64,000 nt of DNA from Bacteroidaceae bacterium (GTDB taxonomy: Bacteria > Bacteroidota > Bacteroidia > Bacteroidales > Bacteroidaceae): contig JAILKU010000001.1 in assembly GCA_024693505.1 (NCBI GenBank), positions 1 to 64,000 on the forward strand, in the 5' to 3' direction. The notes below the pieces were generated by a model. That model searched no databases. It worked only from the letters and a program-made list of their open reading frames with translations, and had not been told where the DNA came from. This document shows, one piece after another, positions 30,946 through 53,317 of the stretch. Positions within the stretch are counted from its first letter, which is position 1. Each line of letters opens with the position of its first letter. The position numbers were made by a program, and so were the translations under genes.

Positions 30946-31784
30946 ATGGCTCGCGCCCTTCTCGTTGCTTCTAGCCCCATGCATCCTATTCCTAGCCCCT
31001 TGCTTTCTCCTCCTTGCGCCCTTCTCGTCAGCCTTCTGAGTCGACGGTGAACAATTCGTTCGCCGTCTCGTCCTCTTTGTCCACCTATTTCTTGATGGTC
31101 TTCTGTTCACCTGAAGTTGGCATCACGCCCCCGTTACTCCATCATTTGAGGCTATAGTTCAAGACCTGAACCCTGAATCAGGGACGTGGTTTTATCCTCT
31201 GAGTCTATATGCATACGCAGTGTATTCGATGTTTTTTGTATCCCGGCGCCCGTCCTTCCCTGGAAAAGTTGAATGGTTTCTGCCTTAACCCTGGCATAGA
31301 TTGAATGGATTCCGAGTACCGTCTTTTAGGTCCCGAAATAAAGGAAAGCTTGGCTTTTGCCGTCAAAATCTATACCCATATTCGTCAATTAAAGGTCAAT
31401 TAATGGCTCATTAACGGCAATTAATGTCTATTTTGAAACGTATAATTACCATTAATCGCCCGTTAATCATTCATTAATCTCGTTATTTTATGCCGAAAAC
31501 GGGCGAAAAACACGAAAAAAGCGGATATTTTTCACCATTTGATGATGGTTTATTTTCCACTTCAGAAGATAATTCCCTTCATTTCCTTTCTTTTTTTGGG
31601 GCTTAAAGTTAATGTTTCATGCCACTTTTTATAGCCATTTGGCTATTTTCACGGCATTTTTTCGTGTAAAGATTTTTTTATGCAGACGAAAGAGCCCATG
31701 CCTGTTTTATGTAAATATTTTTCACACTAGCATCTCAACTATAACATAATCAAAGTATTAGCTTTTTACCCTAAATGGCATACA

Positions 31785-31804
31785 TAGCAAGATGTGTCTT
31801 GCTA
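31785..31804. other. conserved perfect hairpin inside repeat arm
   Basis: TAGCAAGA-TGTG-TCTTGCTA; same stem in right arm at 52702-52721. Confidence 0.75.
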
Positions 31805-31990
31805 GGGCGCATTGTTTTTTGCAAAGTTTGCAGTTATTGCACTTTGCAAATCGCCGACTTTCCATTTTCCGCTAATATAATAACAAAGTCTATAGGCATA
31901 GTTTAATTATATTTATATATAATTTAGCGACATACCCCAAATGCAATAACTGCAATAACTGCAATAACTGCAAAATTGCAAATTTGTGTG

Positions 31991-32072
31991 TGCTAGTATT
32001 GTGCAGTATCGTGCAGTATAGTGCAATATCGTGCAGTATAGTGCCGTATAGTGCCGTATCGCGCATTGCGCC
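31991..32072 (+). repeat. 10-bp tandem iteron array (~8 units), left arm
   Basis: tgctagtatt gtgcagtatc gtgcagtata gtgcaatatc gtgcagtata gtgccgtata gtgccgtatc gcgc. Confidence 0.9.
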
Positions 32073-32084
32073 AAATAACTGTCG

Positions 32085-32092
32085 TATCTTTG
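32085..32092 (+). promoter_or_regulatory. -7 element (TATCTTTG) directly downstream of iterons
   Basis: aactgtcgTATCTTTGcaccagaaaaacgtgg. Confidence 0.6.
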
Positions 32093-32541
32093 CACCAGAA
32101 AAACGTGGACGGCGGCTCGACTTAGTCCGGACAACATCAGAGCTTCCCCACATATCCTACAAGGGTTGGTTGCCATATAACCAGTGTTCTTTGACTTAAT
32201 GATACAAACAAAGTTTCTCTAACGGAAGGCGGCAGTAAATTTACCAGACCCGGGTGTAAATTTTACTAGACCCGCCTCGCGTAAAAAAAAAGACCCTCCC
32301 AAAAGAAGACCCTCCCCCAGCCCCTCCCTTGTAGGGCGGGGAGGGGAATGCTGGGGAAGCTGGAGACGATAGGAGCAGGAAGGCGCTAGGAACAGCGAGC
32401 AAGGACGCCAGGAGGAGAAAGCAAGGGGGCTAGAAGCAACGAGCAAGGGCGCCAGCCATTGCCACTCTCTAACGAAAACTTTTATTTGCATTATTTGCAC
32501 TTATTGCACTTATTGCATTTGGTAATATCCAAAAAAATCAC

Positions 32542-36403: not shown

Positions 36404-36477
36404 CGCTTCAGGATGGGCTTGAACCAACGACCCCATGATTAACAGTCATGTGCTCTAACCAACTGAGCTACTGAAGC
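36404..36477 (-). tRNA. tRNA-Asn (GTT)
   Basis: Reverse complement GCTTCAGTAGCTCAGTTGGTTAGAGCACATGACTGTTAATCATGGGGTCGTTGGTTCAAGCCCATCCTGAAGCG; full cloverleaf with GTT anticodon. Confidence 0.95.
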
Positions 36478-36517: not shown

Positions 36518-36591
36518 CGCTTCAGGATGGGCTTGAACCAACGACCCCATGATTAACAGTCATGTGCTCTAACCAACTGAGCTACTGAAGC
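36518..36591 (-). tRNA. tRNA-Asn (GTT), identical second copy
   Basis: Sequence identical to the copy at 36404-36477. Confidence 0.95.
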
Positions 36592-39610: not shown

Positions 39611-39672
39611 TTCACACTTGCAAAATGCAAATTTGCAAATGCAAAAATGCAAAAATGCAAAAATGCAAAAAT
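39611..39672 (+). repeat. (TGCAAAAA)n short tandem array
   Basis: tgcaaatttgcaaatgcaaaaatgcaaaaatgcaaaaatgcaaaaatc. Confidence 0.8.
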
Positions 39673-39683
39673 CGGAGCAGAGA

Positions 39684-39897
39684 ATATTGCAATATTGCAT
39701 TGCATTTGATTTTTTCTTCAAACAGAGCAGGGCTGTATAAGTGAGGTATATACTTATTATTTAATATATATTATATATAATATATTAATATATAGATATT
39801 TATATATAATATTATAATTAATTATTATCAATAAGCTAACTATCCCCCTCATCCGCTAGTTTCCCAAAAAAGTGAATGCAATGCAATATTGCAATAT
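39684..39897. repeat. perfect 23-bp inverted repeat flanking ~170-bp AT-rich core
   Basis: ATATTGCAATATTGCATTGCATT (39684-39706) and AATGCAATGCAATATTGCAATAT (39875-39897). Confidence 0.92.
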
Positions 39898-39924: not shown

Positions 39925-40008
39925 CTAGACCCGCCTCCAGAATTTACTAGACCCGCCTCCCGTAAAATTTATACCCGCCTCCCGTAAAAATTACACCCGC
40001 CTATAGCA
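39925..40008 (+). repeat. ~22-25-bp tandem repeat, ~4 units, core ACCCGCCTC
   Basis: ctagacccgcctccagaattta / ctagacccgcctcccgtaaaattta / tacccgcctcccgtaaaaatta / cacccgcctatagc. Confidence 0.8.
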
Positions 40009-40050: not shown

Positions 40051-40143
40051 GGGGTATTGCAGTTATTGCACTTATTGCAGTTATTGCAGTTTGCATTTTT
40101 GCATTTTTGCATTTTTGCATTTTGCATTTTGCAGTTATTGCAT
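40051..40143 (-). repeat. TGCAATAA- and TGCAAAAA-type short tandem array, opposite orientation to 39611-39672
   Basis: ttgcagttattgcacttattgcagttattgcagtttgcatttttgcatttttgcatttttgcatttt. Confidence 0.85.
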
Positions 40144-40294
40144 TTGCAAAACTCTTGTTTTGCGGGTGAGAGCAATTTCAAAAGCACAGGTATCTGCATA
40201 AAGCAAAGAGGGCATGCCCAGCGGCACACCCTCATTGGCGTTCCCCGTACTGATGAGGGGGAAGAAATAGTCTTTTGAAACCCGTCGGGCGGAA

Positions 40295-51917: not shown

Positions 51918-52295
51918 CGGCACGGGAAAACGGATGGCAGGAAGCAAGTGTCCGATGTCGGATCACCAATACTTGAAATAGGAATTTCCCAAATGCAATA
52001 AGTGCAATAACTGCAAAAAGTGCAATAAGTTTTCTTTAGAGAGTGGCAACGGCGCCAGCCACTCTCCCCTCCTCTCGGGAGGGGCTGGGGGAGGGTCTTT
52101 TTCTTACGCGAGGCGGGTCTAGTAAAATTTACACCCGGGTCTAGGTAAATTTACTGCCGCCGTCTGTAGAGAGACTTTGTTTGTATCATTAAGTCAAAGA
52201 ACACTGGTTATATGGTAACCGACCTTTTTTGGATATGTGGGGAAGCTCTGATGTTGTCCGGACTAAGTCGAGCCGCCGTCCACGTTTTTCTGGTG

Positions 52296-52303
52296 CAAAG
52301 GTA
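52296..52303 (-). promoter_or_regulatory. -7 element (TACCTTTG) adjacent to right-arm iteron array 1
   Basis: ggtgCAAAGGTAcaac on + strand. Confidence 0.6.
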
Positions 52304-52320
52304 CAACATTTATTTTGCGC

Positions 52321-52418
52321 GATGCACTAAACTGCACTAAACTGCACTATACTGCACTAAACTGCACGATATTGCACTAAACTGCGCTAAACTGCACTTT
52401 ACTGCAGGGTATTGCAGT
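52321..52418 (-). repeat. 10-bp tandem iteron array 1 (~10 units), right arm
   Basis: gatgcactaa actgcactaa actgcactat actgcactaa actgcacgat attgcactaa actgcgctaa actgcacttt actgcagggt attgcag. Confidence 0.92.
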
Positions 52419-52437
52419 TTTTGCTTCATTCGCGGTG

Positions 52438-52445
52438 CAAAGATA
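52438..52445 (-). promoter_or_regulatory. second -7 element (TATCTTTG) in right arm
   Basis: cggtgCAAAGATAcaac on + strand. Confidence 0.6.
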
Positions 52446-52462
52446 CAACAGTTTTTTTGCGC

Positions 52463-52520
52463 GAGGAGCGATACGGCGCGATATGGAACGATATGGAACG
52501 ATAAGGCGCGATAACACTGC
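52463..52520 (-). repeat. 10-bp tandem iteron array 2 (~5 units), right arm
   Basis: gaggagcg atacggcgcg atatggaacg atatggaacg ataaggcgcg ataac. Confidence 0.85.
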
Positions 52521-53317
52521 AAAAAACAGAATTTTTGCAGTTATTGCAGTTATTGCAGTTATTGCATTTGGGTATGTCGCTAAATTATATAAAAATATAA
52601 TTACATATGGATATATATTTTTGTATTATATTAGCGGAAAATGGAAAGTCGGCGATTTGCAAAGTGCAATAACTGCAAACTTTGCAAAAAACAATGCGCC
52701 CTAGCAAGACACATCTTGCTATGTATGCCATTTAGGGTAAAAAGCTAATACTCTGATTATGTTATAGTTGAGACGCTAGTGTGAAAAATATTTACATAAA
52801 ACAGGCATGGGCTCTTTCGTCTGCATAAAAAAATCTTTACATGAAAAATGCCGTGAAAATAGCCAAATGGCTCAAAAAAGTGGCAGAAAACATAAACTTT
52901 AAGGTCCAAATAAAGAAAGGAAATGAAGGAAAATATCTTCTGAAGTGGGAAATAAACCATCATCAAATGTGAGTAAATATCCGCGTTTTTCGTGTTTTTC
53001 GCCCGTTTTCGGCATAAAATAACGGGATTAATGGATGATTAACGGGCGATTAATGATAATTATACGTTTCAAAATAGACATTAATTGCCGTTAATGAGCC
53101 ATTAATTGACCTTTAATTGACGAATATGGGTATAGACTTTGACGGCAAAAGCCAAGCTTTCCTTTATTTCGGGACCTAAAAGACGGTACTCGGAATCCAT
53201 TCAATCTATGCCAGGGTTAAGGCAGAAACCATTCAACTTTTCCAGGGAAGGACGGTCGCGCGCTACCGGATTATTCGCAGGCAGTAGGCCATTTAATAAT
53301 GGTGCTACAACGGGCAG

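Follow-up and report, generated by a model that had tools for sequence, protein, structure and literature searches.

The current study points, tentatively, to a promoter class of the Bacteroidaceae in which a hypervariable array of 10-bp units, one per helical turn, would replace the -33 element, and which would be read by RNA polymerase or another protein through the degenerate unit TAWnTnnCM, serving both HU-HIG/smalltalk operons and transcripts that resemble rRNA leaders. The analysis centres on an array in a 64,000-nucleotide stretch of DNA from a Bacteroidaceae bacterium, the whole of which is referred to as the window. The features of this array and its surroundings, in what the initial annotation termed the left arm, are as follows.

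31246-31990, forward strand: upstream part of a dispersed repeat, containing at 31942-31981 an TGCAATAAC array with units of 9 bp rather than 10
31995-32065, forward strand: left-arm array of seven 10-bp units, including the GCGC end
31997, 32007, 32017, 32027, 32037, 32047 and 32057, forward strand: TA steps of the array
32066-32084, forward strand: conserved spacer between array and -7 box, including a GCGCCAAATAACTGTCG stretch at 32068-32084
32085-32092, forward strand: -7 box TATCTTTG, starting 28 bp downstream of the TA of the last unit
32093-32212, forward strand: conserved leader RNA module of approximately 120 nt
32167-32183, forward strand: small hairpin UGGUUG-CCAUA-UAACCA, just 5' of the boxA-like sequence (boxB-like position)
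32185-32196, forward strand: boxA-like TGTTCTTTGACT, a sequence also seen in the leaders of rRNA operons in relatives

Direct reading of the array gives the unit order TATTGTGCAG TATCGTGCAG TATAGTGCAA TATCGTGCAG TATAGTGCCG TATAGTGCCG TATCGCGC, then ATTGCGCCAAATAACTGTCG, while Tandem Repeats Finder reports a period of 10 with 6.9 copies of the consensus GTGCAGTATA at 31990-32059. The initial annotation had counted about eight 10-bp units; the 10-bp array stands, but the number of good units is seven. Self-identity of the array is 0.73 at lag 10, compared to 0.12 at lag 9 and 0.10 at lag 11, and none of 2000 dinucleotide shuffles gave a best value over lags 5-15 above 0.50. A gap of 19 bp separates the array from TATCTTTG, which agrees with the TAnnTTTG -7 box of promoters recognised by sigma-ABfr. 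In Bacteroidota, such promoters carry TAnnTTTG at -7 and TTG or TTTG near -33 (PMC7366714, PMC9723704), TAnnTTTG being located at -12 to -5 (PMC9723704). The window promoter resembles these in its -7 box and the GTCG preceding it, yet differs in that the array runs through the -33 place, covering this and the upstream region as had been proposed, and in that no TTG occurs 20-25 bp before the TA, the only one being at -19 from it. Transcription is predicted to arise from this -7 box. The core GCGCMAADADNNTGTYGTAYCTTTGCAC has 17 matches in this genome and the reversed pattern none.

The left-arm array sits inside a dispersed promoter-plus-leader repeat, of which a second copy lies at 52.1-53.3 kb and approximately ten more elsewhere in the genome, a draft of 180 contigs with a completeness of 87%. 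The name left arm proved apt, as 31246-32300 recurs inverted at 52089-53259 with arrays of its own; this inverted repeat of approximately 1.1 kb, about 90% identical, flanks some 20 kb of ordinary genes and is a possible site of inversion by recombination. The right arm contains two array promoters in tandem:

52465-52514, reverse strand: right-arm array a, TATCGTTCCA-type, with an TATCTTTG of its own downstream
52438-52445, reverse strand: right-arm -7 box a, TATCTTTG
52323-52417, reverse strand: right-arm array b, TTTAGTGCAG-type, 9.5 units
52296-52303, reverse strand: right-arm -7 box b, TACCTTTG; the leader RNA module of the left arm recurs behind it

Further copies are found on contigs C57, C108, C101, C82, C173, C153 (overlapping C28) and C148, the tandem arrangement being present in four copies in all (the right arm, C82, C173 and C153). 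Units vary among these copies (TATCGTGCAG, TATCGTGCCA, TACCCTGCAA and TAAAGTGACG/TATCGTTACT), the copy on C101 contains a run of nearly identical units indicative of local amplification, and unit numbers range from approximately 4 to 12 between copies and loci. On C8, C162 and C174 the same leader follows a different, array-free promoter with upstream TGACACTCATGACACATGAC. This second type of promoter combines GAACCGCAATG-n-GCCG-TAYCTTTGC with TGACACTCATGACACATGAC repeats upstream; it was observed at four loci of this genome (L020, L018, L017 and L061, on C8, C162, C174 and C124), and GAACCGCAATG-type promoters are also present at smalltalk loci of other species. Mobile-element ends were considered and rejected: the copies have modules in common but no shared ends, and recombination acts separately on promoter, array and leader.

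Other repeats were noted in the window. Intergenic TGCAA/TTGCA arrays with periods of 8 or 9 occur in both orientations (31942-31981, 32486-32517, 39618-39699, 40055-40144, 51994-52030 and 52535-52566), while a short repeat around AGACCCGCCTCGCGTAAA/ACCCGGGTGTAAATTTTAC (39951-40002, 32227-32290 and 52100-52160) follows many of these leaders and also occurs at other places. A 74-bp tandem repeat of 2.3 copies with 97% matches lies at 867-1037, and a tandem pair of equal-scoring tRNA genes is present on the minus strand at 36404-36477 and 36518-36591.

To place the array in a wider context, 100 regions were fetched, most at smalltalk loci, and every sense TAnCTTTGC promoter was scored. Among 51 promoters at the smalltalk loci, 13 are preceded by strongly periodic sequence, in every case with period 10 (and its multiple 20), and arrays with another period between 5 and 19 are absent from the 51; of the 34 background promoters in the window, none scores at period 10. 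Arrays built from other units, again with a period of 10 bp, extend to three other genera and to at least 15 congeneric species; most of them stand ahead of operons for HU-HIG, endolysin-like and smalltalk proteins, although these counts rest on loci chosen for smalltalk or for the pattern. Such arrays therefore precede TAnCTTTGC promoters at other loci in many species. A genus-wide search with the promoter region returned core promoters of other species carrying arrays of other units, such as TATCTGCCAC, TAAATGACAC and TAAGTCGCAG in G160 and TAAGTCACCA in G164, and a generic array pattern added G169, G180, G200, G226, G058, G216, G082 and G221; six further matches (L159, L161, L162, L169, L173 and L174) were set aside after reading as chance or coding. 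A strict unit pattern matched in two of 348 family genomes, but it scores zero in the present genome, being too strict for this result to set a bound on the distribution. The same architecture, again with other units, was found in other genera at three smalltalk loci (L304, L308 and L309) and at one pattern match (G275).

The genes behind most arrays of other species encode HU-HIG (PF18291) and/or smalltalk (NF033879), in some cases with a gene for an endolysin-like protein (phrog_873) next in line, and the array promoter on C19 of the present genome serves an operon for HU-HIG, endolysin-like protein and smalltalk. Operons with an HU-domain protein as gene one or two follow arrays on C19 and in G060, G069, G071, G163, G164, G169, G177, G181 and G221; matches found by pattern only, such as G169 and G275, are likewise at HU-domain operons, the HU-HIG-like gene of G275 being assigned by eye. 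An array stands at an HU-HIG operon at approximately ten other loci, while most copies in the present genome, the window included, have no HU-HIG gene behind them. In G082, an array promoter with TATAGTCCCC units, 48 bp from TAACTTTG, was observed before an RNA methyltransferase-like gene (L171), and another array lies beyond an upstream gene.

Across these loci the helical phasing proposed in the initial annotation holds, with period 10 and a fixed relation to the -7 box across species. Counted back from the TA of the -7 box, the first T of the unit is 28-29 bp (+10n) away, with one case of 30 (G275). In each of the 38 arrays read (approximately 17 unit families), the unit TA precedes that TA by 8 or 9 bp (mod 10), be it as the main or the second phase; a few copies of the present genome peak at 6, with 8 second, because their unit reads TTTA. 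In arrays of other genera the TA offsets, counted by eye, are 28, 30, 49 and 49. The consensus of the 17 families is TAWnTnnCM, in full register T(.88) A(.92) W n T(.68) n n C(.81) M n, with neither G nor T ever at position 8, figures which are not clean probabilities as the families are related by descent to an uncertain degree. Three of the 17 were found by a pattern presupposing part of the consensus, and the 14 pattern-independent families agree with it. The unit is directional, only 4 of 5000 random strand flips reaching the observed information, a figure to which the same caveat of shared descent applies. Units are approximately half GC and are not A-tracts, the AT part of each being TAW alone and the remainder mixed with a near-fixed C. 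No conserved unit sequence of the kind that marks an iteron or centromere was found among the 17 families, which share TAWnTnnCM alone.

The phasing is not confined to arrays. In the DISCRIMINATING result, ordinary array-free promoters exhibit AT maxima at -28, -38, -48, -58/60 and -69 from the TA, a period of approximately 10.3 in phase with the arrays. This pattern holds at smalltalk loci (n=60), at other loci (n=28) and for any TAnnTTTG outside smalltalk loci (n=136), and in each of these three promoter sets none of 1000 random shifts was as strong. Ordinary promoters have no preference for C as seen at unit position 8. They do show TTG at -23 to -21 from the TA, corresponding to the -33 element, whereas array promoters do not: TTG at -25 to -20 is present in 39 of 83 ordinary promoters versus 3 of 20 array-scored ones (p=0.011), and the latter three are, by eye, not clean arrays. 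The initial annotation had regarded the array as a promoter class without described precedent. No description of such arrays was found in the open-access literature (HU-HIG, UP elements in Bacteroides, phased repeats); the phased AT pattern of array-free promoters makes a wholly separate class less likely.

Since ordinary promoters share this pattern, the array seems to carry a general promoter feature to its extreme. In E. coli the UP subsites, at which binding is in the minor groove, lie at -45 to -37 and -58 to -45 (PMC2613000), with -41 to -43 being important (PMC4390567). With TAnnTTTG at -12 to -5, the AT peaks fall at approximately -40, -50 and -60, the places of UP-element/alpha-CTD sites, the TAW of the units, at -40/-41 and -50/-51, being within the subsite ranges. 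We therefore see about an even chance that the array is an extreme, tandemly amplified UP-type element that substitutes for the -33 contact. It would act as the upstream element of a primary-sigma (sigma-ABfr type) promoter, its repeated, phased docking patches raising polymerase recruitment and standing in for the missing contact of sigma with the -33 TTG; it may have arisen when the weaker phased AT patches of ordinary promoters were amplified in tandem, the unit sequence then drifting freely while period and phase were kept. Likeness to a UP element of the rrnB P1 type, bound by the alpha-CTD of RNA polymerase, extends to patches at about -40 and -50, to an AT step in the minor groove on one face of the helix, and to the same phased AT in ordinary promoters of these genomes (PMC2613000, PMC4390567). 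The array differs in its exact tandem 10-bp repeats over up to 12 turns, GC-rich between patches, its near-fixed C8 and its lack of the -33 TTG, and its alpha-CTD site is putative. A UP/-10 promoter without a -35 element has been discussed as possible but undescribed (PMC2613000); the present promoters would share with it a -10/-7 box and upstream contacts with no -35/-33 element, but would be natural and repeat-built, and are candidates from sequence. Several features sit uneasily with the UP-type reading: (i) C8 (0.81), T5 (0.68) and directionality, which a plain UP or bending element need not have; (ii) arrays of up to 12 units, which extend past the reach of two alpha-CTDs; and (iii) a unit composition that is not A-tract but about half GC. 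Moreover, rRNA promoters are the classical users of UP elements, and those of relatives carry no such arrays.

Because the near-fixed C8 and the directionality are unexpected in a plain UP element and absent from ordinary promoters, a dedicated reader is kept as the main rival: a nucleoid protein, a protein of RHH/ParR type or the HU-HIG encoded in the linked operon would bind one unit per turn, coat one face of the helix and activate or repress. The recurrence of arrays before operons with an HU-domain protein as first or second gene agrees with this, as does the precedent of ParR-parC, in which 10-11-bp direct repeats, about one helical turn, serve a promoter-linked binder. The arrays described here are similarly direct repeats of about one turn beside a promoter, but are chromosomal and occupy many loci per genome with units that differ between loci; no ParM/ParR genes were recognised, and ORF lists, with Pfam on selected proteins, revealed no cognate Rep/Par gene near the copies of this genome or downstream of the arrays in other species. 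We consider a dedicated binder rather unlikely, given that ordinary promoters share the phase, that most arrays of this genome lack a linked HU-HIG gene, and that units do not co-vary with the protein. The HU-HIG proteins of G060 and G181 are 90% identical and those of G069 and G071 96%, yet their units match at means of only 5.0 and 3.8 of 10, respectively, while the units of G181 and G169, with proteins 23% identical, match better than in either pair. Co-evolution of HU-HIG and array was consequently rejected, and HU-HIG is unlikely to be a sequence-specific reader; unlike arrays before such near-identical proteins fit a degenerate one, in favour of the UP-type reading. Nor is the term iteron supported if it is taken to mean a conserved binding word, as units change almost wholly between loci and species, with TAWnTnnCM, period and phase alone being kept.

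A neutral minisatellite, in which slippage near a promoter made a functionless 10-bp repeat, might be expected in a genome rich in short tandem arrays of 8, 9, 11 and 22 bp, the adjoining 9-bp array among them, and in which units are amplified locally, as on C101. A neutral process, however, gives no reason to keep period or phase, and both are kept in every array at these promoters, with unrelated units and in several genera, while neighbouring arrays do change period; we regard this origin as improbable. Still less probable is that unit number is a phase-variation dial, slippage by whole turns tuning promoter strength within the population. The spread in unit number, from approximately 4 to 12, and the near-perfect repeats, which could slip, would permit it, but whole-unit changes keep the phase, and each step may matter little.

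Under the UP-type reading, the array in the window would drive a leader RNA with a boxA of rRNA-operon type. In 13 copies (12 from this genome and one from another congeneric species), mean pairwise identity of the leader module is 0.91-0.98 per 30-nt block, and conservation drops beyond approximately 120 nt downstream of the -7 box. An A-to-G difference between copies preserves a pair of the hairpin, as judged by eye. The boxA-like TGTTCTTTGACT matches the GTTCTTTGA sequence preceding 16S rRNA in relatives, and the succession of hairpin, TGTTCTTTGACT and TACAAAC resembles that of the boxB-boxA leaders of their rRNA operons; the module differs in that no 16S rRNA follows it in the window, and the assembly holds none. 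An rRNA promoter proper was rejected on this basis and on the array-free rRNA promoters of relatives. A known RNA family was likewise discarded, the module having no match in Rfam, and its overall fold is no more stable than that of shuffles. In G058, an array promoter was observed whose leader ends at GATCTTTGACATAAT at the contig end (L168), possibly a real rRNA promoter with an array.

Promoters of Bacteroidota often have no clear -33 element. The arrays constitute a natural promoter series that keeps phase and period while changing nearly all other bases, separating shape and spacing from sequence and offering a direct test of upstream polymerase contacts in the Bacteroidota. In addition, the arrays mark a little-studied operon encoding an HU-domain protein, an endolysin-like protein and the smalltalk peptide, and hint at the manner in which it may be expressed.
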